Assembly: GCA_030683995.1 (NCBI GenBank)
Contig: JAUXPH010000048.1
Location: 1-64,000, forward strand
Reading direction: 5' to 3'
Origin: Lutibacter sp.
Lineage (GTDB): Bacteria > Bacteroidota > Bacteroidia > Flavobacteriales > Flavobacteriaceae
DNA: 64,000 nucleotides
The notes under the pieces were generated by a model. The model did no database searches. It had not been told where the DNA came from and saw only the letters and a program-made list of their open reading frames with translations. Every line of letters begins with the position of its first letter. Position 1 is the first letter of the stretch. Below, piece after piece: positions 11,585 to 30,221 of this stretch. The position numbers were made by a program, and so were the translations under genes.

Positions 11585-12286
11585 TTAATCCGTAGTAAAA
11601 CTCCAAACCTGGCCAACTGTTTGTCCGCCTTTGTTGTCTTTCACCGTCACTTTCCAGTAATAATTTTTTGAAGCCAAAAGCGATGCCGAATATGTTTTTG
11701 CGCTTTGGCTTGACGATACTATTGACAAGTTGTTTTTGTCCGTGCCAAAATAAACATCATACGTTAAAATATCACTTGTATCAACATCACTTGCTGTCCA
11801 GGTTAGCGCCAATATTTTTGGAGCGCCGTGCACAATTTCATTTAATGTTGGACTCACCAATTCCGGTGAAAATGGCAAATGGTTTGTGATGCCAACGCCT
11901 TCTGTGTATAAATTAAATGTTGATGAATAATTGCTTGACGCATTTTTACTGTCGGTTGCTTTCACCCTCCAATAATAGGCAATTCCTTTTTCCAAAGTAA
12001 TTGATTTGCTGGTGGTGGTTGAGGTTTGTGTATGTGAAACCGGTGAAAATGAAGTGTTTTTGGCCACTTGTATTTCATAGGTAATAACGCCGCCTTCAGC
12101 ATCCGTTGAAGCGTTCCAGGTAAAATTCAACACATTGTCTGTGCACAATGAATTGTTTACAGGCAAAGCCAAAGTTGGAACGGTTGGCGCTGTGTTTACA
12201 ACTGGTGGAGGTGTTGGATCGCTGCCGCCGCCGCCGCATGATCCTAAACTGATACTTAATATTGCAATATATAAAAGATTTCTCAT
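11585..12286 (-). CDS. Lipoprotein with two fibronectin III-like domains
   Basis: This 233-residue lipoprotein has a lipobox ending LGSC with Cys17, then a Gly/Pro linker (GGGGSDPTPPP). Two fibronectin type III-like domains follow, about residues 32-128 and 135-233. They share the pattern LPVNNSLC..LNFTWNASTDAEGGVITYEIQVA..YYWRVKATD and LVSPTLNEIV..LALTWTASDVDTSDILTYDVYFG..YYWKVTVKD. It is the last gene of the minus-strand starch operon, 4 bp after the secreted amylase gene, so it probably sits on the cell surface and binds or scaffolds there. Binding to glycan is inferred from position only. Confidence 0.85.
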   Translation of the reverse strand: MRNLLYIAILSISLGSCGGGGSDPTPPPVVNTAPTVPTLALPVNNSLCTDNVLNFTWNASTDAEGGVITYEIQVAKNTSFSPVSHTQTSTTTSKSITLEKGIAYYWRVKATDSKNASSNYSSTFNLYTEGVGITNHLPFSPELVSPTLNEIVHGAPKILALTWTASDVDTSDILTYDVYFGTDKNNLSIVSSSQSAKTYSASLLASKNYYWKVTVKDNKGGQTVGQVWSFTTD

Positions 12287-12290
12287 TGGT

Positions 12291-15200
12291 TTATTGTTTA
12301 ATAATTTTCAGGGTTACGGGTTGGTCTAAAAGCACTTTTGCGATATACACGCCTGTTGGTTTGTTCGCTAAACTTAACTGCACTTTTCCGTATACAACCG
12401 GGTATTTTTTTGTTGAAATCAATTGCGAATTGAAGTTGTACAATTCAACAATTACTTCTGTTTCAGATGTTGGAACCGTAATATAAAAAATATCTTTGGT
12501 TGGATTTGGATACGCAAAAACACTTTCAAAACCATCGATGGTTTTTGCATAAACTCCTTCACAGGAAACGGCCGTTTTAACTTCCAAAATATCACCACTT
12601 TTTACATCAACAGAAAATATAGGAGCCATTGTTTCAAATTGTTCCAGTCCGTTTACATACACGATAAATGGCGCAGTCCCTTTTTCAATTTCAACGGAAG
12701 CTTTGCCTGAGACAACACTCGATTTTCCTGAAACTGTAGTTCCTGCAACAACAGTAACGGCATAACATTGCGTGTAAGTTTGCCCTGTAACCCCAATACA
12801 GAAATTATACGTTCCCGGTGCCAAATTTGCGGAGGTTGCCGTTGTACTTGTAAAATTATACGGAATATTGTTAATTGTTACGGTATAGTTTAAAGCTGCC
12901 ACTGCCGTAATTTTAATTTGTCCGTTCTTTTTGTCCTTACAAGTTTCACCGATGACTTCCACATTAAAATTATTGGCAGGCAAGGTGAATATTGGGCAAC
13001 CAGTGCTGTTTACGCTTGTTCCGGGAAAGGTGTTCGGGCATAAATCTATGCTATCCGCAACGTTGTCGCCGTCGCTGTCGTCTGATGCCGTTCCGCCTCT
13101 TGGATCCAGTAATTTTACGGTAGAATACAATTTATATTCTCCCGGGTTTAGCGTAATTGCTGTTGAAGTATTGGTGATGTTTTTTTCTTCACCGGTAAAA
13201 TATTCATACCAAGTTCCTGTTTTTGAAAACTGCACCGTTATGGTTTTTGAAGTAATGTCGAAATTTCCAGCCACAACAACATCCATACTGGCGTGTTTTA
13301 AAAGGATGGATTTTGTCAATGTTCCCACATTTAGGGTAAAATCAGTGGTGTTAAAAACAGGTTGATTCTTTTTAAATGCGGCCAGAGTTGCCCAGGTATT
13401 GTAAATTTGTTTCCTGTTGGCGTTGTCAAAATAGTCCCAACGAATTGGTTTTTTTGACAATCGGCAATCGTTGCTTACTGTGCCATTTGTGCAGGTGTTA
13501 ATTGAAAAATCATAACCCAATTCCCCAAACTGCCAGATCATTTTTGGTCCGGGAATGGTAAAAAAGAACATTCCGGCAAGTTCTTGACGAGACAAAGCAG
13601 TGTTTAAATTTTTAACATTGTAGGTGGCGTTGCTGTTACCAAATTGGAGGTTTTTATACATCAAACGTTCTTCATCGTGGCTTTCCATATAGCCAACAAC
13701 ATTTGGCTGGTTCCAGTTTCTTTGTTTGTAGGATATCCAATTGATATTGGCATCGGTAGCGAAACCCATCGTGTTTTGGTTGTAACTGTGATTCATATTT
13801 CCCCAAAGCATAATGCCGTAATTTGCCAACACGGTTTCTTCAGAATTTTCTGACAAATGTTCAAAAATCACATAGGGTTTGTTGGTCAGGTTGTTGCTCC
13901 AAACGTGATCGGCATAATTTTTTAGAATGGTAATGCGCGAAGCATCATAAGCACTTGCCCAATTTTCGGCACCATAATAAAGCGTATTCGAAAAACCTTT
14001 GGTGAAATCAAATCGAAATCCGTCAATTTTATATTCATTCATCCAATAACTTAAAACATCATTAAAAAACGCTTTGGTATAAGCCGATTCGTGGTCAAAA
14101 TCGTAACCCCAGTGTGCATTGGTGTTGTCGACCAAATTATGATTTACGTTGTACCACGGATTGTTTGCGGCCGGTTTGTTTGCAGCGTTGTCCCAGTACA
14201 TTTGAAGTAAGGGCGATTGACTGTAAGAATGGTTAAAAACAACATCGGCAAGCACGGCAATACCGCGTTGGTGGCATTCGTCCACAAATTTTTTAAAATC
14301 GTTTTTGGTTCCGTAGGCTTTATCCAGGGCCATATACAAGGCCGGATTGTAACCCCAGCTGTCGTTTCCTTCAAATTCATTTACTGGCATCAATTCAATG
14401 GCATTTACGCCAAGGGATTGCAGATAATCTAAATGAGTCAGGGCTTCATTATAAGAATCAGATTCCGTAAAATCACGGATATGCAATTCGTATATGATTA
14501 AATTGTTTTGCCCTGGTTTTATAAAATTAGTTACATTCCAAGTGTATGCAGGCTCATTTATTAAAAATGTTGAAACAAAGCCAGTGGTTAAATTGGTGGG
14601 GTAGGCCTTAAGGTTTGGATAATTTCCGGGTTTTATATATTGGTCATTTGAAGGATCCAATATTTTTTCTGAATAAGGATCGGCCACTTTAATGCTGTAA
14701 TCTATAAAATATTGATAGGCATATTCTGTGTTGATGTCTAAAGCGGGAACTGTTAGCCAAAAATCCTCCCCGTCTTTTTTCATTTGGTAGGTGGCATTTA
14801 ATGTCCAGTTGTTAAAATCCCCTAAAATTAACACGTCTGTTTTTAGTGGCGCTTTGAGCAGGAAAGTAACTGAATTGTCGGGGTTTTTATTGAAGCCATA
14901 TTTTAAACCAGCAGGCTTTGTGGCATTCACTGTTGGTGTTTTTACGAAGATGTTGATCGTTGTTTCTTTTACTTCAGTGCCATTAGTGGCAACAGCTTTA
15001 AGGATTTGATTTCCTGCTGTGGCCAATAAATAAGAAGTTGAAATAACGGTGGCATTGGTCGCTGTTTTTATGGAGGTGCCATTCACAAAAAGTACTAAGT
15101 TGGAGGCTACAGAAGCTTCCGCTGAAATAGTGATGCTGCTGTTTAGGTTATAAGCGCTGTTGTTTGCAGGGTTGGTAAAAGTAACATTCAATCCTGCTGC

Positions 15201-15605
15201 ATAAATGGGTATAAAAATATCTGGTCCATTTTTTGTGCTTCCGTCTGAAGATCTAAAAACAAAATTTAATTCTGTAATGGTAACAGTTGTAGCAACGCCG
15301 TAAAATCCATAAACCGTTGGCGTAATCACCAAGGTGTATAAATTGGCATTTGAAGTTGACCGGGTAAGTTTTGGCTGGGTGGTATTTGTGCCCCATGTTC
15401 CAATAACATTTGACCATCTAACGCCATTTGCCGTCACCCCTGTATGTGCGTAAACGTCACCGGTATAGCCGGCTAACGGAGTGCCTACAGCATTAAAAGT
15501 AACCGTAATTTGACTGTTTGCCGTAGGAATTGTTGGCACCGTGCTCACTTGTGAGAATAATAAGCCGGTACAACTTAAAAGAATAAAAAATACTATTTTT
15601 TTCAT
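12291..15605 (-). CDS. T9SS-secreted GH13 alpha-amylase (multidomain)
   Basis: This 1104-residue extracellular amylase has several domains in order. A signal peptide (1-19) is followed by beta-sandwich domains to about residue 225, then a CBM48-like module near 228-320 (VLILGDFNNWTLN). A GH13 barrel follows with region I ADVVFNHS, nucleophile Asp533 in GFRFDF, acid/base Glu582 in VIFEH and Asp644 in ESHDEER. After the barrel come a thrombospondin-3-like DSDGDN segment near 840-870, a Cys-containing domain, and a type A Por/T9SS sorting domain at 1030-1104 (AYPNPTKDIF to LKIIKQ). It should be exported by the type IX system and cut starch outside the cell. It is fourth in the susC operon, but a terminator-like hairpin precedes it. 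Confidence 0.93.
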   Translation of the reverse strand: MKKIVFFILLSCTGLLFSQVSTVPTIPTANSQITVTFNAVGTPLAGYTGDVYAHTGVTANGVRWSNVIGTWGTNTTQPKLTRSTSNANLYTLVITPTVYGFYGVATTVTITELNFVFRSSDGSTKNGPDIFIPIYAAGLNVTFTNPANNSAYNLNSSITISAEASVASNLVLFVNGTSIKTATNATVISTSYLLATAGNQILKAVATNGTEVKETTINIFVKTPTVNATKPAGLKYGFNKNPDNSVTFLLKAPLKTDVLILGDFNNWTLNATYQMKKDGEDFWLTVPALDINTEYAYQYFIDYSIKVADPYSEKILDPSNDQYIKPGNYPNLKAYPTNLTTGFVSTFLINEPAYTWNVTNFIKPGQNNLIIYELHIRDFTESDSYNEALTHLDYLQSLGVNAIELMPVNEFEGNDSWGYNPALYMALDKAYGTKNDFKKFVDECHQRGIAVLADVVFNHSYSQSPLLQMYWDNAANKPAANNPWYNVNHNLVDNTNAHWGYDFDHESAYTKAFFNDVLSYWMNEYKIDGFRFDFTKGFSNTLYYGAENWASAYDASRITILKNYADHVWSNNLTNKPYVIFEHLSENSEETVLANYGIMLWGNMNHSYNQNTMGFATDANINWISYKQRNWNQPNVVGYMESHDEERLMYKNLQFGNSNATYNVKNLNTALSRQELAGMFFFTIPGPKMIWQFGELGYDFSINTCTNGTVSNDCRLSKKPIRWDYFDNANRKQIYNTWATLAAFKKNQPVFNTTDFTLNVGTLTKSILLKHASMDVVVAGNFDITSKTITVQFSKTGTWYEYFTGEEKNITNTSTAITLNPGEYKLYSTVKLLDPRGGTASDDSDGDNVADSIDLCPNTFPGTSVNSTGCPIFTLPANNFNVEVIGETCKDKKNGQIKITAVAALNYTVTINNIPYNFTSTTATSANLAPGTYNFCIGVTGQTYTQCYAVTVVAGTTVSGKSSVVSGKASVEIEKGTAPFIVYVNGLEQFETMAPIFSVDVKSGDILEVKTAVSCEGVYAKTIDGFESVFAYPNPTKDIFYITVPTSETEVIVELYNFNSQLISTKKYPVVYGKVQLSLANKPTGVYIAKVLLDQPVTLKIIKQ

Positions 15606-15719: not shown

Positions 15720-17015
15720 TTAAAGTGCAGTCAACGTGTACTTTGGTGCTGAAGAATTGCTAAAATCTAAAACAATTTTATAAGTTCCAGCAGCAACAGG
15801 AATATCAGCACCACCAACTTCTAAAGTTCCATCCAATCCATTATCTCCATAATTTAAATCCCAACTGTCATTGGTTCTAAATTTAATTTTACCGGTTGTT
15901 AATGTAACACGGTTTATTACCCAAACATCATCTTTACTGAAGTCTAACGTAAAACGTACATTTGGTCCATCCCATCCATTAGGTGCGGCATCGCCAACAA
16001 GTCCCCAGATATTAATAGGAGTAATGGTATATACCAAGTTTTTCAAATCAAACACCACCAAATAATTTCCGGCAGTAACTGCAATATCTGCACCATTATT
16101 ATCTAGCTTTCCATCAGCCCCGGTATCTCCGTAATTAAGTCCCCAGTTGTTATTGAATCTAAATTTCACTTTCCCGGCTTTCAAGGTTACAATTGCTTTC
16201 CAAGTATCAGAGAATGAGTCATACGCCATTGGCATATCAGGTCCATCCCAACCATTTGTTGTGGCATCACCAACCAATCCCCAAGTATAAGCTTCAATAG
16301 TGTATGTTAAAGCACTTAAATTGAAAGTGATTTTATAGGTACCCGCAGTAACTGGGATATCTGTTCCACCTTCATCTAATTTCCCGTCTAAACCAGTATC
16401 ACCGTAATTAAGTGCCCATGAATTATTAGATCTGAATTTTATATGACCATTGCTTAGAGTCACATAGGCAACAAATACGTCAGCAATGCTTGTTGTATAA
16501 AACGGCATATCCGGTCCATTCCATCCATTAACGGTCGCACTTCCTACAACTCCCCAAATGGTAGATAAATCCAATTTATCTTCATAAGCGGTTGCCATAA
16601 ATGAAGTGCTATTTGAACTCAAACTATGGTAAACGCTTAAAACCGCCTCTATTTGAACAGAAACCTGAGCTGGAGTACCTCCTTTTAGACCCAAATTAAG
16701 TAAAATTTTATTTAATTGAACGGTTTCAAAAACTTTAGATAAATTGGTTCCTGCAGCAACGGTTACACTTTTTTCACCTGCCGTGAAAACAATTTTATAG
16801 CCAGCTGCAGCATCAAAGCCATAGTCAGGATCAGTCCAAGAAACGGTTAACACATCTTGTCCAGCATTGTCTTTATCCAAAACTACATTACTTACAGACA
16901 AGCTAACTGTGGTTTCAGCATTTGGATTAAGGACCGTTAATTCTTCCTTGTCGCACGAAGCTAAAAATGTAGCGGCAACAATAAGAAGCAGTATTTTATT
17001 TAATATTATTTTCAT
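15720..17015 (-). CDS. SusE/SusF-like starch-binding outer-membrane lipoprotein
   Basis: This 431-residue lipoprotein has a lipobox LASC with Cys21. A SusE-type N-terminal Ig-like domain spans about 30-145. Three tandem starch-binding modules of about 91 residues follow at 154-244, 245-336 and 337-431. Each begins WG(L/V)VG.A..NGW(N/D)GP and contains (K/I)KFR.N..W.LNYGD.G.DG.L and the end (V)TAG.Y. The repeats are strikingly alike, suggesting recent duplication or gene conversion. It should sit on the cell surface beside SusCD and hold starch. The same module occurs inside the SusD encoded just upstream. SusE versus SusF cannot be decided. Confidence 0.92.
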   Translation of the reverse strand: MKIILNKILLLIVAATFLASCDKEELTVLNPNAETTVSLSVSNVVLDKDNAGQDVLTVSWTDPDYGFDAAAGYKIVFTAGEKSVTVAAGTNLSKVFETVQLNKILLNLGLKGGTPAQVSVQIEAVLSVYHSLSSNSTSFMATAYEDKLDLSTIWGVVGSATVNGWNGPDMPFYTTSIADVFVAYVTLSNGHIKFRSNNSWALNYGDTGLDGKLDEGGTDIPVTAGTYKITFNLSALTYTIEAYTWGLVGDATTNGWDGPDMPMAYDSFSDTWKAIVTLKAGKVKFRFNNNWGLNYGDTGADGKLDNNGADIAVTAGNYLVVFDLKNLVYTITPINIWGLVGDAAPNGWDGPNVRFTLDFSKDDVWVINRVTLTTGKIKFRTNDSWDLNYGDNGLDGTLEVGGADIPVAAGTYKIVLDFSNSSAPKYTLTAL

Positions 17016-17032: not shown

Positions 17033-18916
17033 TTAATATCCAGTGTTTTGTTTCAAATTAGGATTTGCATTCAAATCTGTTGCAGGTATAGGGAAAAGGT
17101 TTAAATGACTAGAAGTAGAAACACCTTCTTTTACGCCACCTTTCCAAGGCCATACATAATTTCCGTCAGAAAATTTTCCAAACCTGATTAAATCTGTTCT
17201 TCTGTGTCCTTCCCAATACAATTCTCTCGCTCTTTCATTAAGAATAAAATCTAAGTTAATTGAGGTCACTTTGCCAAAATTATTGGCTCTGTTTCCCCTT
17301 AAGAGATTCATATAAGAAATTGCAAGCGCTTCACTTCCTCCGCCACCTTGTAAAGTTGCTTCAGCATACATTAAATAAACATCGGCAATTCTAAATAATG
17401 GGAAATCAGTATCGGTAAATTCTCCACTTGAACCTTTCATGCCATTTTTATCCAAGTTTTTAAATTTAGCCACGGCATATCCGTCGGTAAAAGTTGAAAT
17501 GGACTCAATTTCAAGTTTTTGTCCATCAGTATGGAATATTGCTCTTGGATCTTTTTCAATGGTATAAGTGCCTGCAGCTAGATTAAAAGTAATTTTATAC
17601 AAACCTTTTGCCACTTTTATGTTCGAACCACCATCATCTATAGTTCCGTTAGCCCCATTATCACCATAATTAACTCCCCAGTCGTTATCTCTTCTGAATT
17701 TAATTTCACCTTCATTTAGATTAAAGAAACCGGCATAAACATTGGTGCTTCCAATTTTGTGAAGCGGCATGTCAGGACCGTTCCAACCATTTACGGTTGC
17801 AGATCCTACCAACCCCCAATTAGATGCAACTCCAATAGCATTGTTTGAAGCACTGATATCAATTCCAGAGTTAAAAGTTTTTATTAACGAGCTGGTAGTT
17901 CTAGTGCCACCCCAACCGCCGTTGACACCAAAAGCAGCTGGACTCATGCTTCCGCCAATTGCAGCGTGGATTAAAAATGTAGTTCCGCCATAACTTTGAG
18001 TTCTTAAACCATCAAAAGCAATAGGAAAAATTACACCATCAGCAGTATGATTGTCAGCCAAAAATAAGTTTTTATAAGGTGAATCCATACCATAACCTGC
18101 GCTAATTACTTTATTTGTGTAAGTTATACACTCAGTGTATTTGGCTGTACCTGTATACACTTTTGCATTTAAGTACAATTTAGCCAATAAAGTCCATGCT
18201 GCAGCTTTGTCAGCTCTTCCGTATTCATTTGATTTTGGCGCAGCTAAACCATTCTCTATATCTTTTAATTCCTTTTCAATCCATGTAAATAGATCGGCCC
18301 TGCTTTTTTGTTGAGGGAAGAAAAATCCAACCTCATCATTTTCAGTTACAAAAGGAAAATTGCCATATAAATCCAATGCATGATAGTAGCTTAAGGCTCT
18401 TAAAAAACGAGCTTCCTTTTTATAAAGTTCAATATCAGCCAATAATTGTCCGGAAACGCCTCTGCCTGCCAATTTAGCATCGGTAGTTTCTCTTAAGAAC
18501 GCATTACAAGAAGTTATTTGGTAAATAATCCTATTGTACAAGGCTGTTACAAATTCGTTGCTTGATGTCCAATCTTGTTCATGGTAATCAGGCAAACTGC
18601 CATCTGCCCATCCAATTACAGCTTCGTCAGTTGTTACTTCCTGCGCCAACCAATATTGTCTTAGGTATTGACTAAATCCTTCATCAATTCCCGTAATATC
18701 AGGCATTCCTGCAGGCCCTTGTTGTCCGCTAATGGCCAATCCGGCATATAGTTTGGCCAATACTTGTTTATATGCAGCAGGGTCGTTAAATAACTGATCT
18801 GCCAATATAACATCTTTATCTTGTGGAACGGTATCTAAATCCTTTAGACACGAGGTCAATGTAAACAACGTTACAATGGTTCCCAGCAATAATAATTTAA
18901 AAGAATATTTTTTCAT
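17033..18916 (-). CDS. susD: SusD-like starch-binding lipoprotein with an inserted SusE/F-type module
   Basis: This 627-residue surface lipoprotein (lipobox LTSC, Cys23) caps the SusC channel and binds maltodextrin. The SusD fold is visible in the N-terminal TPR-rich part (ARFLRALSYYHALDLYGNFPF) and the C-terminal part (DFPLFRIADVYLMYAEA, then FILNERARELYWEGHRRTDLIRFG). Around residues 366-455 it carries an extra segment beginning WGLVGSATVNGWNGPDMPL, with KFRRDNDWGVNYGDNG. This is the same module as the three repeats of the next gene, placed just before the usual SusD block DPRAIFHTDG. The rest is collinear with SusD, so this looks like an in-frame domain insertion rather than a fusion error. 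Its 627 residues exceed the usual SusD length of about 500-550. Confidence 0.95.
   Translation of the reverse strand: MKKYSFKLLLLGTIVTLFTLTSCLKDLDTVPQDKDVILADQLFNDPAAYKQVLAKLYAGLAISGQQGPAGMPDITGIDEGFSQYLRQYWLAQEVTTDEAVIGWADGSLPDYHEQDWTSSNEFVTALYNRIIYQITSCNAFLRETTDAKLAGRGVSGQLLADIELYKKEARFLRALSYYHALDLYGNFPFVTENDEVGFFFPQQKSRADLFTWIEKELKDIENGLAAPKSNEYGRADKAAAWTLLAKLYLNAKVYTGTAKYTECITYTNKVISAGYGMDSPYKNLFLADNHTADGVIFPIAFDGLRTQSYGGTTFLIHAAIGGSMSPAAFGVNGGWGGTRTTSSLIKTFNSGIDISASNNAIGVASNWGLVGSATVNGWNGPDMPLHKIGSTNVYAGFFNLNEGEIKFRRDNDWGVNYGDNGANGTIDDGGSNIKVAKGLYKITFNLAAGTYTIEKDPRAIFHTDGQKLEIESISTFTDGYAVAKFKNLDKNGMKGSSGEFTDTDFPLFRIADVYLMYAEATLQGGGGSEALAISYMNLLRGNRANNFGKVTSINLDFILNERARELYWEGHRRTDLIRFGKFSDGNYVWPWKGGVKEGVSTSSHLNLFPIPATDLNANPNLKQNTGY
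17550..17820 (-). other. Inserted starch-binding module within susD
   Basis: About 90 codons (approximately residues 366-455) encode a SusE/F-type starch-binding repeat closely matching repeat 1 of the neighbouring SusE/F-like protein. Both read GSATVNGWNGPDMP, a phrase that repeats 2 and 3 do not share exactly. Confidence 0.85.
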
Positions 18917-18926
18917 TTCTGTTTAA

Positions 18927-21899
18927 TTAAAAGTTTAAGTTAACGCCAACCATATAAATTCTTGGTCGTGGATAAATGTTATAATCAATACCGCTTCCTG
19001 TTGATGTAGATCCAACTTCTGGGTCTAATCCAACATAGTCAGTTATGGTCAATACATTTTGAACAGAACCTGTTATTGAAAAGTTTGATGTTGCTCCAAA
19101 TAAGCTGCCAAAATTGTATCCAACACTTACGTTGTCTAATTTTACATATGATGCTTCCTGAACGTAATAATCAGATAAGTATCTTTCTGCACCGCCATTT
19201 ATAAATTGCGTTTCCAAAACATTTTCAACACCATTTGCAATTACATTAGGGAATCCAGCGTTCAATAATTGATGATTGAACCCTAAATTAGAATCAACAT
19301 TATTATAAACATAGTTACCAACACTTCCTCTCCAGGCCATATTGAAGTTCCATTTTTTGTAATTTAGGTCTGTGGTAAATCCAACAGTAAAATCAGCCGA
19401 TGGTTTTTCAAATCTGTATTTATCTGCATTTGTAATATCGCCATCATTATTTCTGTCTACATAAACACCTTCTAAAGGTTTTCCATTTACGTCATAAACT
19501 TGTTGATAGACAAAAAATGTATTAGGAGCGTATCCTACGGAATGTCTTTGGACATAGTTACCTACACCCCCGCTAAATAAACCAACAGGAACACCTTCAT
19601 AGTCAGGTCCGTCATTTGTTGTTAATTGGGTAATTTCGGTATCGTTATAAGTGAAGTTCAAACCTAAATTTAAATTTACATCATCGGTTGAAATTGCTTT
19701 GGTGCTTAACATAAGTTCAATACCTTTATTTTCCATTTTTCCAATGTTCGCGTTACCTGCGTTAGACAATGAAGATCCGCCCGGGAAAGGAATAAAGTTT
19801 AATAAATCTTTTGTTTTTCTAAAATAAGCATCAATAGATCCGCTTACTACATTATTTAAGATTCCAAAATCAAGACCGGCATTATAAGTTTCCGTTTCTT
19901 CCCATTTTAAAGTTGTATTAAATGGCTCAGCTCTAAAAGTGCTAATAAAATTACTTCCAAATTGATATTGAGCGGTATTGGTACTTCCTAAATAGGTCGC
20001 AATTGCCGGGTAGTAACTACCAATATCTTGCTGACCTGTAAGACCCCAGCTTAATCGAAGTTTTAAGTTAGTGACAGCGGTAGAATTTTTCATAAACTCT
20101 TCTTCATAAATTTTCCAGGCAAAAGCTGCTGAAGGGAAATTACCCCATCTGTTATCTTTGCTAAATCTTGAAGATCCGTCACGTCTGTAAGTCAATGTCA
20201 ATAAATACTTATCGGCTAAAGAATAGGTAAGTCTGCTAAAAAATGATTGTAAGTTTAATTCATTAAAATAGTCAAAAGTTTCGGTTAACGTTTTATCTTG
20301 AATATTGTCTGTATTAAAGCCTTCATTTTTAAAGTTTTGGTATGAATAACCAGCCATAAAATCAACGGTACTGTTAATCGCTTTTAAGTCTGTGCCATAA
20401 TTAAGATAAAAATCCATCAACACATTTTTTTTATCTTGCTCATAATGACTGATACTGCCTAATTTTGCTTTTTCAATGCTACTTAAGGTAGCAGAATTAA
20501 ATATTGTATTGTCACCAATACTGTTTGAAATATCATACCCTAAGTTAAGGTTGGCTTTTAATTCAGGCAAGAAGTGCATTTTATAATCAAATTGAATATT
20601 TCCAATGCTTCTGCTCGAATTGGCCGAATTATCGCGCAATTCCAATAAAGCCACAGGGTTTTTAGGGGCTCCAACTGTAACCGGATTTCCGTTAGGCTGT
20701 AACCATTCCCAATATCCTCCATAATTTGGATTGCTGTCGTAAACCGGTTTTGTAGGGTCAAACCCAATGGCATTGCCAATGGCGCCCCAATCTGCAAAAT
20801 CGGTGTTAATCATAGAAATTTTACTGTTTAAGTCTATTTTTAAATGGTCATCAAATAGTTTTGAACCAATACTTACGGAATAGGTTACTCTTTCAAGATT
20901 TGAAGTCAACAAAGTACCCGATTGGTCTGTGTAACCTATTGATCCCCTAAAATTAAAATTTTTGGTACCTCCCTGTAAACTTAAGTTATGGTCTGTTCCA
21001 TAGCCAGTTCTAAAAATCTCATCTTGCCAATTGGTATTTGCTGTTCCCAATAATGCAATATCCGATGGCAAGCCATTCGCATTAACATAATCTCTAAATT
21101 GGTCAGCAGATAACGCATCAACTGTTTTAAGATTTTCATTTACTGAAAAGTTTGCGGTGTAAGATCCTTTAAAACCGTCGCTATTTCCCTTTTTTGTGGT
21201 AATGATAATAACCCCGTTTGATGCTCTTGAACCGTAAATAGCGGTTGCAGAGGCATCTTTTAAAATAGTGTAAGATTCAATGTCATTAGGGTTAATGGTG
21301 TTTAACGGATTGCTTACCCCAGAAATGCCCTCTTTATCAACAGGAACGCCGTCAATCACAAATAAAGGGTCATTTGTGGCATTTAGTGATGCTCCACCTC
21401 TAATTCTAATAGTAGATCCGCCTCCTGGCTCTCCACCATTTGAGGTAATTTGAACCCCTGCAACTTTACCCGTAAGCATTTGGTCAGGTGAAATTATGGC
21501 ACCTTTGTTTAAATCTTTAGCTTTAATAGAGGTCACCGATCCGGTTGCATCTTTTACGGTAGTGGTACCATAACCAATGATCACAACTTCATCTAACGAC
21601 TCAGCGCTTTCGGTTAAAACAACGTTGATAGTGTTTCTGGCTCCAACAGTAATTGATTGGGTATTAAATCCAACATAAGAGAAAACCAAGACATCTGCCG
21701 GTTTCACATTTTCTAAGGTATAGTTTCCGTCAAAATCTGTTGCGGCACCTATAGTGGTTCCTTTAATAATAACGCCAACTCCAGGCAGTGCTGTACCGCC
21801 TGCGGCTTCTGTAACTTTTCCTTTCACGGTTTGCTGGGCAAACATCACTAAAGGCAAAAGAAGCAAGACATTAAACAAAAAAATTTTAAAATTTTTCAT
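18927..21899 (-). CDS. susC: SusC-type TonB-dependent maltodextrin transporter
   Basis: This 990-residue outer-membrane protein has a signal peptide (about 1-21). A carboxypeptidase-regulatory-like domain follows at about 23-100 (VKGKVTEAAGGTALPGVGVIIKG..FDGNYTLENV), then the SusC signature SLDEVVIIGYGT. The plug domain carries LTGKVAGVQITSNGG, STIRIRGGASLNATNDPLFVIDG and SRASNGVIIITTKKG. The beta-barrel ends in an aromatic residue (VGVNLNF), as barrel proteins do. It imports maltooligosaccharides across the outer membrane using TonB energy, together with the SusD encoded 10 bp downstream. Operator-like sites lie 125-170 bp upstream of its start. Confidence 0.97.
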   Translation of the reverse strand: MKNFKIFLFNVLLLLPLVMFAQQTVKGKVTEAAGGTALPGVGVIIKGTTIGAATDFDGNYTLENVKPADVLVFSYVGFNTQSITVGARNTINVVLTESAESLDEVVIIGYGTTTVKDATGSVTSIKAKDLNKGAIISPDQMLTGKVAGVQITSNGGEPGGGSTIRIRGGASLNATNDPLFVIDGVPVDKEGISGVSNPLNTINPNDIESYTILKDASATAIYGSRASNGVIIITTKKGNSDGFKGSYTANFSVNENLKTVDALSADQFRDYVNANGLPSDIALLGTANTNWQDEIFRTGYGTDHNLSLQGGTKNFNFRGSIGYTDQSGTLLTSNLERVTYSVSIGSKLFDDHLKIDLNSKISMINTDFADWGAIGNAIGFDPTKPVYDSNPNYGGYWEWLQPNGNPVTVGAPKNPVALLELRDNSANSSRSIGNIQFDYKMHFLPELKANLNLGYDISNSIGDNTIFNSATLSSIEKAKLGSISHYEQDKKNVLMDFYLNYGTDLKAINSTVDFMAGYSYQNFKNEGFNTDNIQDKTLTETFDYFNELNLQSFFSRLTYSLADKYLLTLTYRRDGSSRFSKDNRWGNFPSAAFAWKIYEEEFMKNSTAVTNLKLRLSWGLTGQQDIGSYYPAIATYLGSTNTAQYQFGSNFISTFRAEPFNTTLKWEETETYNAGLDFGILNNVVSGSIDAYFRKTKDLLNFIPFPGGSSLSNAGNANIGKMENKGIELMLSTKAISTDDVNLNLGLNFTYNDTEITQLTTNDGPDYEGVPVGLFSGGVGNYVQRHSVGYAPNTFFVYQQVYDVNGKPLEGVYVDRNNDGDITNADKYRFEKPSADFTVGFTTDLNYKKWNFNMAWRGSVGNYVYNNVDSNLGFNHQLLNAGFPNVIANGVENVLETQFINGGAERYLSDYYVQEASYVKLDNVSVGYNFGSLFGATSNFSITGSVQNVLTITDYVGLDPEVGSTSTGSGIDYNIYPRPRIYMVGVNLNF

Positions 21900-22461: not shown

Positions 22462-23484
22462 ATGAAACCAAGAATTACCCTGAAAAAAATTGCAAAAGAA
22501 TTTGGCGTATCCATTTCTACGGTTTCAAAAGCACTGAAAGACAGTCATGAAATTAGTGAAGAAACAAGAGGGAAAATAAAGGCATTTGCCGATTATTATC
22601 ACTACAAGCCCAACAGCCTGGCTTTGCAGCTCCGCAGTCAAAAGACCTCAGTTATTGGCGTGATTGTCCCTGAAATTGTGCATCATTTTTTTTCTACGGT
22701 CATTAATGGCATTGAAAAATACGCCACAGAAAAGGGATACAATGTAATGGTATGCTTGTCTAATGAATCTTATGAAAAAGAAGTTTCAAATATGAGCGTC
22801 CTCACCAACGGAAGTGTTGACGGATTGATTGTTTCCATTTCACGTGAAACCCAGCAAAATCAGAATTTCAAACATTTTGAAGCCATTATTAAAGACGATT
22901 TTCCGCTGGTTTTGTTCGACAGAATTAATGATGCTATTGAATGTGACAAAGTGATTATTGATGATGTTGGCGGCGCATTTAAGGCTACAAACCATTTGGT
23001 TGAAATAGGTGCAAAAAGAATTGCTTTGTTAACAACCCAAGATTTTATTACGGTTGGGTCATTGCGAAAAAAAGGCTATATAAAGTCGTTAAGTAAAAAT
23101 AAGATTTCTGTTGATGAAAGCCTGATTTACAAAATTGATGACAATTTGGATTTATATGATCAAATAAAAGAGGTGTTCGCCGTTAAAAATCCGCCCGATG
23201 CCATTTTAGCGGTAAATGAAATATATGCCGCCATCGCTTTAAAAATAGCCAAAGAAAGCGGTTTAAAAATACCCGAAGATATTGCCATTATTGGTTTTAC
23301 CAGTGGTTTAATTTCGGAATATACCGATCCGCCATTGACTTGTGTTGAACAACACGGATTTTTAATGGGCAAACAAGTCGCAGAATTGTTAATCAACAGA
23401 ATTGAAAGCACAGCACCTGCCGAGTTTCAGAAAGTGGTAATTTCACCCAATTTAAAAATTAGAAGATCAACACTTGATAATTGA
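22462..23484 (+). CDS. LacI-family transcriptional regulator
   Basis: This 340-residue regulator has an N-terminal helix-turn-helix (ITLKKIAKEFGVSISTVSKALKD) and hinge (KPNSLALQLRSQKT). A periplasmic-binding-protein-like sugar domain follows (IGVIVPEIVHHFFSTVINGIE to GFTSGLISEYTDPPLTCVEQHG). It lies between the susC operon and the MFS/maltose-phosphorylase operon, so it very likely controls both in response to a maltodextrin or glucose signal. Operator-like sites sit upstream of both operons. Whether it represses or activates is not certain: the site near the MFS promoter lies upstream of the -7 box, which would suit activation. Confidence 0.95.
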   Translation: MKPRITLKKIAKEFGVSISTVSKALKDSHEISEETRGKIKAFADYYHYKPNSLALQLRSQKTSVIGVIVPEIVHHFFSTVINGIEKYATEKGYNVMVCLSNESYEKEVSNMSVLTNGSVDGLIVSISRETQQNQNFKHFEAIIKDDFPLVLFDRINDAIECDKVIIDDVGGAFKATNHLVEIGAKRIALLTTQDFITVGSLRKKGYIKSLSKNKISVDESLIYKIDDNLDLYDQIKEVFAVKNPPDAILAVNEIYAAIALKIAKESGLKIPEDIAIIGFTSGLISEYTDPPLTCVEQHGFLMGKQVAELLINRIESTAPAEFQKVVISPNLKIRRSTLDN

Positions 23485-25938: not shown

Positions 25939-28245
25939 ATGAATAAAGATTATATTAAGCCTTACGAATGGTCAATCATTGAAGAAGGTTTTGATCCCGA
26001 AAATGTGGAAGCCTCAGAAAGTCTGTTCTCTATTGGAAACGGATCAATGGGCCAACGCGCCAATTTTGAGGAAAAGTATTCAGGAAAAACCTTTCAGGGA
26101 AGTTATATTGGTGGTATTTATTATCCTGATAAAACCCGAGTTGGATGGTGGAAAAATGGTTATCCGGAGTATTTTGCCAAAGTGCTGAATGCACCAAACT
26201 GGATTGGCATTGACATCCAAATCAATGAAACGGAACTGGATTTAAACACCTGTAAAGTTTCAAATTTCAAAAGAGAATTGAATATGAAAGAAGGCTGGCT
26301 TAGCCGATCTTTCAACGCAATTCTTGAAACCGGCGAGGAAATTCAGGTAGAAACAAAACGCTTTATAAGTCTGGAATACAATGAAACAGGCGCCATTGAA
26401 TACGCTGTAAAAGCCATCAATTTTTCAGGAGAAATTACTTTTTCTCCTTATATTGATGCCGGCATCAAAAATGAAGATTCCAATTATGATGAATATTTTT
26501 GGGAAATCTTAAAAATTGTCAACGGCAAAAATAACGGTTGCATACTGTCAAAAACCTTAAAAACTGCATTTCACGTGGCTACCGCCATGGAAGTTTCTTT
26601 TGAGGTAAACAATGAAAAATTTGATGCTTTACAACAAACTGAAGTTGAAGAGAAATCGTTGCATTATACTTACAAACTAAATGTTTTGGAAGGTGACACC
26701 GCCAAAATTCATAAGTTTGGAAGTTGCGTAAGTTCTTTAAATTATCCAAAAGAGGATTTGATTGAAGCGGCTTTTGACAATGTTAAAAAAGCATACAAAC
26801 TTGGATTTTCGAAACTTTTGGAAAGCCAGAAGGAATCATGGTCGAATATTTGGCATACAGCCGATATTATTATTGAAGGCGACATTAAAGCGCAACAAGG
26901 CATCCGATTCAATATTTTTCAGTTAAACCAAACTTATTTGGGAACAGATGCAAGACTAAATATTGGTCCGAAAGGCTTCACCGGCGAAAAATACGGCGGA
27001 AGCACTTATTGGGACACGGAAGCTTATTGCATCCCTTTTTATATGGCAACTAAAGATGCCAGCGTTGCGAAAAATTTATTGTTGTATCGCTACAATCAGC
27101 TTGACAAAGCCATTGATAATGCCAAAAAACTTGGATTCAAAAACGGGGCAGCATTGTATCCGATGGTGACGATGAATGGCGAAGAATGCCACAACGAATG
27201 GGAAATCACTTTTGAGGAAATCCACAGAAACGGAGCAATGATTTACGGTATTTACAATTATGTAAATTACACCCAGGATTTTGAATACGTTCCAAAATTC
27301 GGATTGGAAGTGATGATTGCCGTTGCACGTTTTTGGCATCAGCGCGCTAATTTTTCAGAAGCAAAAGGCCAATATATGGTTTTAGGCGTTACCGGGCCAA
27401 ATGAATATGAAAACAACGTAAACAATAATTTTTACACCAATTATTTGGCGAAATGGTGCATTCAATATGCTGTGGAATGTTTGGATAGGGTTGCACAAGA
27501 CTATCCTGCAGATTTTAAACGCGTAATGGATAAAACCAATTTGACCAATGAAGAAACCAAAAAATGGCTGCAAGTTGCCGAAAATATGTATTTTCCTTTT
27601 AGTTTGGAACACAATGTTTATTTGCAGCAGGACGGATTTTTGGACAAAGAATTAATTCCGGTTGCTGAATTGCCAACCTCAGAGCGGCCAATCAACCAAA
27701 AGTGGTCTTGGGATCGCATTTTGCGTTCTTGTTATATCAAACAAGCCGATGTTTTGCAGTGTTTGTTCTTTTTTGAAAACAAATTTGACAAAGAAGATTT
27801 AGAACGTCATTTCGATTTTTATGAGCCTTTAACGGTTCACGAATCTTCATTGTCTCCTTGCGTGCATTCAATTTTGGCGGCTTCCATAGACAGAATGCCA
27901 AAAGCCTATGAGCAATATGTAAGAACATCGCGATTGGATTTGGATGATTACAACCACGAAGTTCACGAAGGTTGCCACATTACCAGCATGGCAGGAACCT
28001 GGATGTCTATTGTGCAAGGATTTGGCGGTATGCGCGTTTGGGAAGACGGCGTATTAACCTTCAATCCGCAAATTCCCAAAGAATGGAAATCATATTCGTT
28101 TACCATCAATTTCAGGGGAAATATCATCAAGGTTTACAAAAGCCAAACCGAATGCAAATTCTTTAATGAATCAGGAAATGAAATTCATATGATTGTGAAC
28201 AAGAATAAAATTTTAATTCCTTCAAATCAATTAGTTACAATATAA
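25939..28245 (+). CDS. Maltose phosphorylase (GH65)
   Basis: This 768-residue cytoplasmic enzyme lacks a signal peptide. It splits maltose with phosphate into glucose and beta-glucose-1-phosphate. The GH65 layout is clear: an N-terminal beta-sandwich, a linker, an (alpha/alpha)6 barrel from about residue 320, and a C-terminal beta-domain. The barrel motif YMVLGVTGPNEYENNVNNNF contains the expected catalytic acid Glu489. The C-terminal sequence HEGCHITSMAGTWMSIVQGFGGMR is the phosphate-site region. It follows pgmB, the enzyme using its product. Trehalose or kojibiose phosphorylases are close relatives; the starch context favours maltose. Confidence 0.93.
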   Translation: MNKDYIKPYEWSIIEEGFDPENVEASESLFSIGNGSMGQRANFEEKYSGKTFQGSYIGGIYYPDKTRVGWWKNGYPEYFAKVLNAPNWIGIDIQINETELDLNTCKVSNFKRELNMKEGWLSRSFNAILETGEEIQVETKRFISLEYNETGAIEYAVKAINFSGEITFSPYIDAGIKNEDSNYDEYFWEILKIVNGKNNGCILSKTLKTAFHVATAMEVSFEVNNEKFDALQQTEVEEKSLHYTYKLNVLEGDTAKIHKFGSCVSSLNYPKEDLIEAAFDNVKKAYKLGFSKLLESQKESWSNIWHTADIIIEGDIKAQQGIRFNIFQLNQTYLGTDARLNIGPKGFTGEKYGGSTYWDTEAYCIPFYMATKDASVAKNLLLYRYNQLDKAIDNAKKLGFKNGAALYPMVTMNGEECHNEWEITFEEIHRNGAMIYGIYNYVNYTQDFEYVPKFGLEVMIAVARFWHQRANFSEAKGQYMVLGVTGPNEYENNVNNNFYTNYLAKWCIQYAVECLDRVAQDYPADFKRVMDKTNLTNEETKKWLQVAENMYFPFSLEHNVYLQQDGFLDKELIPVAELPTSERPINQKWSWDRILRSCYIKQADVLQCLFFFENKFDKEDLERHFDFYEPLTVHESSLSPCVHSILAASIDRMPKAYEQYVRTSRLDLDDYNHEVHEGCHITSMAGTWMSIVQGFGGMRVWEDGVLTFNPQIPKEWKSYSFTINFRGNIIKVYKSQTECKFFNESGNEIHMIVNKNKILIPSNQLVTI

Positions 28246-28349: not shown

Positions 28350-30221
28350 ATGATAAATAATTTATTGATTAGGATGAAACGTATGATATTGGGAACTTTT
28401 CTTATCTTTTTTATGGTAGGCTGTAATCAATTTTTAAAAAAAACAAATCAACCCGTTAAACAAGAAGAATTCGTTCCTCAATGGTCAAAAACAGTAGTAT
28501 GGTATCAAATATTTCCTGAACGATTTAGAGATGGAGACACTACTAATAACCCTACTTTAGCGGATATTGAGGGGGCAGACCCTCAGGAAGCTCCTAAGTC
28601 TTGGCAAATTCATCCTTGGGAAAGCGATTGGTATGAACTTCAGGATTATGAAAAAATTAATGGCGAACCAGAAATGTGGAAACATATTTTAAGAAGAAGG
28701 TATGGTGGAGATATTCAAGGAGTTATCAATAAACTAGATTATTTACACGATTTAGGAATTACGGCTATTTATTTAAATCCTGTTTTTCAATCTCCATCGC
28801 TACATAAATATGATGGAGAAAGTTATCACCATATCGACCCAAATTTTGGTCCAGACCCTGAAGGCGATAGAAAATTGATAGCCACCGAAAATCCATTAGA
28901 TCCATCAACATGGGTTTGGACAAGTGCAGATGAATTAGTATTAAAGCTTATTAGCGAGGTACATAAAAGAGGTATGAAAATTATTTTTGATGGCGTATTT
29001 AACCATTTGGGGTATAATAGTTTTGCTTTTCAGGATGTATTAAAAAACCAACAAAACTCGGCTTATAAAGACTGGTTCATTATCAATTCTTGGGATAATT
29101 CTAAAACCGGCTCAACATTTGATTATGAAGGCTGGTTTGGTGTAAAATCACTTCCTGAATTAAAAGAAGACAGCAATGGAATAGTTGAAGGTCCTAAAAA
29201 ATATATTTTTAATGCCACCAAAAGATGGATGAATCCAAAAAATGAAGGTATTGAAAAAGGAATTGATGGTTGGAGACTAGATGTAGCTTATTGTATTGGA
29301 CATTCTTTTTGGAAACAATGGAGAAAACATGTGAAAGCAATCAATCCAGAAGCATATATAACCGCAGAAATTATAGATATTCCTAACAAAGTAATGCCCT
29401 ACATGCAAGGTGATGAGTTTGATGGAGAAATGAATTATAATTTTGCTTTTGCTTCAGCTGAATTCTTTTTTAATCCTGATTCTACAAGTATATCGGCTAC
29501 TGAATATGATATTAAACTTAAAGAACTTAGAGGATTATACCCTAATGGAGTAGCTCATGCTTCTCAAAACCTTTTCGGAAGTCACGATTCTAATAGAATT
29601 GGTTCACATATTGTTAATAGGGGTATCGGAAATTTCAGAAACTGGAGCAAATATTTTAATACCTCTAATGCACTGAACAATTCAGAATATTCTACTCGTA
29701 AACCTCAAAATAAAGATATAGAATTACAGAAATTATTTGTAGTTATGCAAATGACGTATGTAGGAGCTCCTATGATTTATTATGGGGATGAGGTTGGAAT
29801 GTGGGGAGCTAATGATCCAGATTGTAGAAAACCAATGCTTTGGGATGATATTAATTATAAAGATGAAGTTTTCAGTGTAAACGGATCTATGCATGAACCA
29901 GATAAAGTGAAAATTAATCAGTCTTTATATGCTCATTACAAAAAGCTCATTCATATTAGAAATGAAAATTTAACATTACAATTAGGTACATACAAAACAT
30001 TATTAACAGATGACAAGAAAGGTGTTCTTATATTTGAACGAGAGTACGAAAATCAAAAATTAATTGTAGTTATTAATAACAGTAACAACAAGCAAACAAT
30101 AGAGATACCCGAACTAAAAGGGAAATGTTTTAAAGATCTTTTAAGTTCTATTGTATTTGAGAGTGGTGACCAAAAAGTAGTTGCTAAAAAAAGCGGATTA
30201 ATATTAAAAGTGTGTCCATAA
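28350..30221 (+). CDS. GH13 amylase/cyclomaltodextrinase-like lipoprotein
   Basis: This 623-residue lipoprotein has a lipobox FMVGC with Cys25. ATG codons at 28350 and 28374 are both possible; the second gives a tighter signal peptide. The GH13 barrel starts at VVWYQIFPERFRDGD, with region I DGVFNHL, nucleophile Asp311 (GWRLD), acid/base Glu340 (ITAE) and Asp413 (GSHDSNR). An extra loop near 63-118 lies before YGGDIQGV, as in neopullulanase-type enzymes. The catalytic set is complete. Codon use differs by eye from all neighbours: TTA and CTT replace TTG, GCT replaces GCC, AGA dominates and GGC is rare. This suggests separate, later acquisition within the operon. Confidence 0.9.
   Translation: MINNLLIRMKRMILGTFLIFFMVGCNQFLKKTNQPVKQEEFVPQWSKTVVWYQIFPERFRDGDTTNNPTLADIEGADPQEAPKSWQIHPWESDWYELQDYEKINGEPEMWKHILRRRYGGDIQGVINKLDYLHDLGITAIYLNPVFQSPSLHKYDGESYHHIDPNFGPDPEGDRKLIATENPLDPSTWVWTSADELVLKLISEVHKRGMKIIFDGVFNHLGYNSFAFQDVLKNQQNSAYKDWFIINSWDNSKTGSTFDYEGWFGVKSLPELKEDSNGIVEGPKKYIFNATKRWMNPKNEGIEKGIDGWRLDVAYCIGHSFWKQWRKHVKAINPEAYITAEIIDIPNKVMPYMQGDEFDGEMNYNFAFASAEFFFNPDSTSISATEYDIKLKELRGLYPNGVAHASQNLFGSHDSNRIGSHIVNRGIGNFRNWSKYFNTSNALNNSEYSTRKPQNKDIELQKLFVVMQMTYVGAPMIYYGDEVGMWGANDPDCRKPMLWDDINYKDEVFSVNGSMHEPDKVKINQSLYAHYKKLIHIRNENLTLQLGTYKTLLTDDKKGVLIFEREYENQKLIVVINNSNNKQTIEIPELKGKCFKDLLSSIVFESGDQKVVAKKSGLILKVCP

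Follow-up and report, generated by a model that had tools for sequence, protein, structure and literature searches.

The susD gene of a likely alpha-glucan locus in the window (the whole stretch of DNA analysed, 64,000 nucleotides) encodes a SusD lid lipoprotein that carries a complete SusE/F-type (X25-like) module within its scaffold. Our leading reading, to which we give a probability of roughly 0.7, is that the module provides a second, lid-borne alpha-glucan site beside the classic SusD site, on the lid of an alpha-glucan SusCD importer. The textbook Sus system keeps these roles on different proteins, with SusD as the lid and SusE/F as the main capture proteins.

The locus and the SusD scaffold

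The features of the locus, with their positions in the window and the basis of each assignment, are as follows.

11585-12286, minus strand: small protein with a SusE-type domain (Pfam)
12291-15605, minus strand: GH13 with CBM48 and a type IX secretion (Por) tail, 1104 aa (ORF, Pfam)
15720-17015, minus strand: susE, an Ig-like N-terminal SusE domain and three modules (residues 154-244, 245-336 and 337-431) (ORF, Pfam)
17033-18916, minus strand: susD with inserted module, 627 aa (ORF; SusD_RagB and SusD-like_3 matches)
17033-17551, minus strand: C-terminal part of the SusD scaffold, from residue 456 (DPRAIFHTDG), the last 3 bases being the stop codon
17552-17818, minus strand: inserted SusE/F (X25-like) module, residues 367-455 (SusE repeats, Pfam, AlphaFold2, Foldseek)
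17819-17863, minus strand: linker between scaffold and module, residues about 352-366 (AlphaFold2, alignment)
17864-18916, minus strand: N-terminal part of the SusD scaffold, residues 1-351 (alignments to solved SusDs, 18-row alignment)
18927-21899, minus strand: susC, TonB-dependent transporter, 990 aa (ORF, Pfam)
22462-23484, plus strand: LacI-type regulator, 340 aa, divergent from susC (ORF, domain scan)
25939-28245, plus strand: GH65 enzyme of the same gene cluster (ORF, domain scan)
28350-30221, plus strand: second GH13 (ORF, Pfam)

A 10-base gap separates the end of susC from the start of susD downstream of it, and susE follows 17 bases after susD. Since the cluster combines two GH13 proteins, a GH65 enzyme, a LacI-type regulator and SusE-type proteins, an alpha-glucan is the likely substrate. 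The Pfam scan of the small SusE-type protein (11585-12286) returned no starch-module match. The same genome holds a second alpha-glucan-like locus (C44, L195) with a module-free susD (533 aa), a GH31, a GH13 with a SusG C-terminal domain and a 975-aa frame in the place of susC; no frame of 150 aa or more lies there between susD and the GH31.

By its domain, fold, lipobox and adjoining susC, the 627-aa protein is a SusD/RagB lid lipoprotein. It matches Pfam SusD_RagB with 117 bits (curated cut-off 23.1) and SusD-like_3 with 34.7 bits, and the NCBIfam SusD exception model NF033071 in two stretches with E 1.5e-130 and 436.1 bits, below that model's cut-off of 725 bits. The lipobox LTSC contains Cys 23, which is invariant in 18/18 aligned insert-type SusDs. 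The full-length AlphaFold2 model (pLDDT 85.5, pTM 0.82) finds its best structural matches in 3jys (Foldseek E 1.2e-36) and Bt SusD (3ck7-3ckc).

The equivalents of the classic site, D78, R86, W103, Y309 and W335, all lie in the N-terminal part of the scaffold. We compared six positions of Bt SusD (D73, R81, W96, N101, Y296 and W320), which we take to be its ligand contacts. Four are identical (D78, R86, Y309 and W335 correspond to D73, R81, Y296 and W320) and two are changed (W96 to I101 and N101 to G106). At these two positions W or N is uncommon in the relatives, the exception being N at the first of them (4/59 no-module rows, 1/27 two-module rows). We looked for contact residues in PMC13354076 and found none there.

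The inserted module

The module comprises 89 residues (WGLVGSATVNGW...YTIEK) and can be aligned over its full length to each of the three repeats of the neighbouring SusE. Its identity to repeats 1, 2 and 3 is 51/89 (57%), 41/89 (46%) and 40/89 (45%) at the protein level and 63, 55 and 55% at the nucleotide level; the repeats themselves are 56-60% identical to one another. A 97-residue piece containing the insert scores 32.6 bits against Pfam SusF_SusE (PF16411, cut-off 27.5) and a 147-residue piece 31.6 bits, so that the resemblance to SusE is far above chance. The Pfam scan of the full-length 627-aa protein did not report SusF_SusE, and the excised insert (19.5 bits) did not reach the 27-bit cut-off of PF22058 (X25_BaPul_like).

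Among solved SusD structures, PDB 3jys covers residues 40-350 and 455-627 of our protein, with 11 residues between them at the insert site, and Bt SusD (3ck7) covers residues 50-352 and 465-627, with 55 residues between. On these alignments the module is a clean insertion relative to both proteins. The preliminary description of this DNA had proposed an inserted SusE/F-type module at residues about 366-455, most similar to repeat 1 of its own SusE, between collinear SusD flanks that resume at DPRAIFHTDG; it gave no strand for the gene, which is on the minus strand. The repeat identities and the excised-piece Pfam score confirm the module and its closest repeat, and the limits and the flanks proved correct in the alignments to the SusE repeats and to 3jys and 3ck7, both of which can be aligned on either side of the insert.

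The same description had named independent folding as a point on which it could be refuted, and AlphaFold2 folds the module both alone and within SusD. Alone, with 60 aligned modules, the prediction has eight strands, a pLDDT of 95.4 and a pTM of 0.86. Within the full-length model, blocks 361-450 have a mean pLDDT of 86-95 and the module borders are lower (71-72 for blocks 341-360, 68 for block 451-460); the linker contains a predicted helix at 353-360 in model numbering, which runs one below the residue numbering used elsewhere. The three top Foldseek matches of the module are X25-2 of R. bromii Sca5, Bacillus pullulanase and Bt SusF, each with probability 1.00 and TMq 0.60-0.67, and E reaches 0.001 or less for Sca5 X25-2 only (E 1e-3). 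The predicted fold is that of a beta-sandwich like the SusF and X25 modules. In sequence, the best PDB match of the module profile is BT3088 SGBPdex (9sje, 9sji; E 2.8e-08), and widening this search to E 10 returned nothing further.

SusE-like module matches were also seen near the N-terminus of a leucine-rich-repeat protein that is open at the contig end (G000 C62, L196, 1389-5357; Pfam SusF_SusE 21.1 bits, below cut-off) and, in G021 and G024, within frames of about 2500 aa.

Occurrence in related SusDs

To describe the distribution of the module we counted 183 of 185 distinct SusD reading frames spanning the site, two having been dropped as partial. No module is present in 101 frames, one in 54, two in 27 and three in a single frame (L159, 860 aa), in a sample that tilts towards insert types because the queries were of this type. 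The group of 101 includes six frames with another extra stretch. Thus, many related SusDs lack the module, and it is not an integral part of the SusD fold; its presence as part of the fold in close homologues of all flavobacteria, which the preliminary description had named as a refuting result, was not found. Full-length Pfam scans of L127, L131 and L159 report one, two and three SusF_SusE stretches, and L127 also passes PF22058 with 31.2 bits.

Among genomes of the genus that are at least 90% complete, 24/30 have a SusD match at E <= 1e-45. Full-length insert-type matches, with open frames of 619-635 aa as read from the rows, were found in 11 of these 24. Apart from the genome of the window, nine genomes of the genus carry a full-length insert-type match with an identity of 73-89%, and for a further three the identity is 51-53%. 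In the family sample, 188/395 genomes match and at least 32 are insert-type, as read from the rows; with three candidates scored per genome, 32 is a lower bound among the matches listed, and 30 of these 32 loci have one module each by HMM. The class-level search returned two-module SusDs of 730-739 aa, and the phylum sample contributes candidate insert-type matches of 639-646 aa from six genomes, all of a single family that lies outside the class. When a profile of 18 insert-type SusDs was used, the best 80 of 593 loci included Saprospiraceae, Bacteroidales, Prolixibacteraceae and Gracilimonas amylolytica (Balneolaceae). G582 and G565 can be aligned throughout, yet they carry another insert and not the module. 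An assembly or gene-model artefact is refuted: nothing was found in its favour, and all listed full-length insert-type matches are stop-free open frames in separate genomes.

None of the six rows with other extra stretches shows a module match, and L129, L137, L166, L067 and L085 have no Pfam domains other than SusD ones. L129 (5965-7962, Chitinophagales) has 134 extra residues at the module site (insert at about ORF residues 366-486). L066, L067 and L085 have about 54-78 extra residues there, which are alike by eye and are not the starch module; the stretch in L085 was gained or lost recently, since L085 is placed next to L072, a SusD without the stretch, and its branch is short. The extra sequence of L137 starts further downstream and is therefore not at the module site.

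We also counted the modules of the next gene, which could be read in 99 of 141 loci (42 unreadable). Behind a one-module SusD the next gene has three modules in 32/46 readable loci, and behind a two-module SusD it has two in 13/17, so that SusD and the next gene add up to four modules in 45/63 one- and two-module loci. For no-module SusDs, other inserts included, the next gene has 2, 1, 3 or 0 modules in 18, 8, 5 and 4 of 35 loci. The frequent sum of four may reflect shared descent only.

History of the insertion

With the exception of two rows, the left-hand break that the inserts make in the scaffold falls within profile positions 355-363 of 538. On a scaffold tree from which the inserts had been cut out, built on the 141 of 182 rows left by thinning, 18 changes of the no-module label are required; starred branches force at least 12 of them (SH-aLRT only). 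The 318-aa L030, counted as full and without a module, was excluded from the trees by the length rule. A single clade of module-bearing SusDs was rejected with p-AU 4e-96 on a further thinned tree of 70 rows (37 vs 33; eight named rows left out), the group for this test having been chosen after viewing the larger tree. The module trees are based on 88 columns and on 244 and 130 of 371 modules, the larger one having 20/241 branches starred and mostly weak support. On the smaller one, a common clade for every SusD insert is rejected (p-AU 0.0007), and one clade of single inserts together with second modules is borderline (p 0.049). In the larger tree, with weak support, first modules of two-module SusDs group with first SusE modules and second with second, and Flavobacteriaceae-type single inserts group with three-module SusEs.

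One recent absence is clear. In a small clade in which L056, L011 and L013 have the module, L015/L197 (G031) encodes a 525-aa SusD without it beside L056 (SH-aLRT 91). G031 has the same susE-susD-susC order as the window. Next come two plus-strand genes, of 344 and 445 aa, which match in size the 340-aa LacI gene and a 450-aa gene of the window, and in the module tree the first SusE module of this locus is paired with the one of L056.

The preliminary description had further suggested that the insert arose by local shuffling from the neighbouring susE. In the 32 retained single-insert loci that find their best own-locus match in a three-repeat protein, this match is repeat 1, 2 or 3 in 18, 12 and 2 cases. 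For the window, too, repeat 1 is the best own-locus match, and in the thinned module tree, from which closer SusD inserts had been removed by thinning, own repeat 1 (0.93) is second-nearest after another SusD insert (0.79). The window insert is, however, 84% identical to the SusD insert of another genome, against 58% for repeat 1 of the neighbouring SusE, and for most inserts the closer relatives are inserts in other SusDs and not modules of their own locus. Recent shuffling within the locus is therefore not supported here. Module 1 of the two-module SusD L151 stands out as the clear exception, with 76% identity to module 1 of the SusE in its own locus vs 54% to the best other SusD insert. This case could be an exchange between neighbouring genes, though an old one, because synonymous divergence between the two modules is saturated (dS 2.2). 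Together with the spread of insert-type matches through the genus described above, these comparisons make a recent origin from repeat 1 of the neighbouring susE very improbable, in spite of L151 and of the order in which first and second modules group with those of SusE.

The source of the module is SusE-like, and the insertion event in this lineage looks old. Our reading of these comparisons and trees is that several acquisitions from SusE-like donors, plus losses, would account for the pattern. We see about even odds for a wider joint reading, in which the SusD-lid loop beside the starch site would be a phylum-wide evolutionary acceptor for binding modules. SusE/F-type modules would have entered and left this loop many times, as single, tandem and triple insertions, the tandems probably copied from a two-module susE of the same operon kind, and other stretches would occupy the site in some SusDs. 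The lid would then be an integrated surface glycan-binding protein, and the module numbers of lid and SusE may be jointly constrained.

Putative sugar site and selection

The putative site residues of the module are W378, K406, R408, W413 and N432, and W335 (W320 in Bt SusD) precedes the start of the insertion by about 17 residues. According to the accessible text of PMC9112005, the sugar contacts of maltotriose-bound Sca5 X25-2 include W620, K654, W661, N684 and N687; the K-x6-W spacing of K406 and W413 equals that of K654 and W661, and the other spacings differ. All five residues are invariant in 18/18 aligned inserts, and in 48 retained single inserts the equivalents of W378, K406, R408, W413 and N432 are kept in 46, 48, 47, 48 and 46 cases. 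Across the 27 two-module SusDs, 19, 20 and 19 first modules and 23, 23 and 22 second modules retain W, K and W, respectively. An extra starch site in the module is thus plausible at the level of sequence.

The module is under purifying selection: dN/dS is 0.039-0.208 over 12/12 pairs, and 0.045-0.135 for the scaffold. These values (0.04-0.21 in all 12 pairs) and the almost full retention of W/K/R/W/N over the 48 single inserts argue against a relic or neutral passenger, copied in and without a role. We regard such a passenger as quite improbable, even though it would agree with the clean absence in L015 beside L056, with the shortening of some inserts by about 8-10 residues and with those first modules that are without site residues.

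Shorter module variants are found in L005, L007, L008, L009, L040, L041 and L042; the aligned ones among them lack about 8-10 residues of the GDNGANGTIDDG loop and retain the W, K and W. The GDNGANGTIDDG loop resembles a motif that we take to be a possible calcium-binding loop.

Proposed role of the module

In the mechanism we propose, the lid of an alpha-glucan SusCD importer would have taken up one SusE/F-type (X25-like) module in the loop past W335, keeping most of its own site (D78, R86, Y309, W335) and acquiring a second putative site built from W378, W413, K406 and N432. The module would catch alpha-glucan chains near the lid, thereby enriching them locally around the SusD site and the SusC mouth, and the lid would do part of the work otherwise left to separate SusE/F lipoproteins. 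The loop is a recurrent acceptor site, with 0, 1, 2 or 3 modules in related SusDs. Starch binding, an outer-rim position on the lid and hand-over to SusC are what we infer for the module.

The accessible text of PMC9112005 cites a Kd of about 300 uM for SusF modules and reports that individual Sca5 X25 modules failed to bind alone, only the tandem having bound. A single module may therefore bind weakly, and two-module SusDs could, by analogy, form a clamshell like Sca5.

Alternatively, the module may bind little sugar and serve mainly in assembly, by binding SusE or SusC and either stabilising SusCDE or tuning how the lid opens. A fixed complex could be reflected in the sum of four modules in 45/63 loci, a sum that is perhaps a lineage effect only, and the linkers have lower model confidence. 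On the other hand, the sugar-site residues are invariant in the 18 aligned inserts and kept in 46-48 of 48, and the no-module locus of G031 retains susE and susC in the same order. We consider this explanation unlikely and prefer a second alpha-glucan site on the lid.

Related SusDs offer a graded natural series of lids with 0, 1, 2 and 3 embedded modules in otherwise comparable importers. Because this series includes close relatives with and without the module, the contribution of SusD binding to transport becomes directly testable. SusD annotation and substrate prediction should also check for embedded modules; the whole-protein Pfam scan missed the one here.

Comparison with known systems

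Among the open-access matches listed (titles and abstracts, with subscription papers and preprints mostly outside), no description of a starch module inside SusD was found, and none appears in the accessible text of PMC11093988, PMC10316084, PMC9112005 and PMC9599597. The architecture is built from two known domains, and their combination is apparently undescribed in the open-access literature searched.

Two types of SusD described in these sources are among the closest known systems. The 'looped' alpha-glucan SusDs of marine Flavobacteriia (PMC11093988) likewise belong to alpha-glucan loci with GH13s and a SusE-like protein; however, in the accessible text they are defined by a loop of about 17 residues, no inserted domain is described and CBM is absent from the main text. 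The F5_SusD-like protein of uncultured gut Bacteroides (PMC9599597), taken by title to be PDB 7nek, is likewise enlarged, its additional regions having coils and some beta-sheet. It differs in that, in the accessible text, it belongs to a xylooligosaccharide system, is non-binding and has no starch module described.

For the scaffold, the closest known structures are Bt SusD (3ck7-3ckc) and B. vulgatus SusD (3jys), which share it at 30-33% structural-alignment identity and TMt 0.82-0.89; both are without the module and have 55 and 11 residues at the site, respectively. For the module, the X25 modules of R. bromii Sca5/Sas20 (7rpy) and Bacillus pullulanase (2wan) share the fold and the K-x6-W pattern, and the tandem arrangement in Sca5/Sas20 resembles that of two-module SusDs; they differ in sequence (17-19% alike) and in their hosts, which are scaffoldins and enzymes. 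BT3088 SGBPdex (9sje, 9sji) is, by its PDB listing, a separate dextran surface glycan-binding protein. Bt SusE/SusF (4fe9; PF16411 SusF_SusE) has modules of the same family and fold, but carries them on a separate lipoprotein, whereas here the module sits in the SusD lid.
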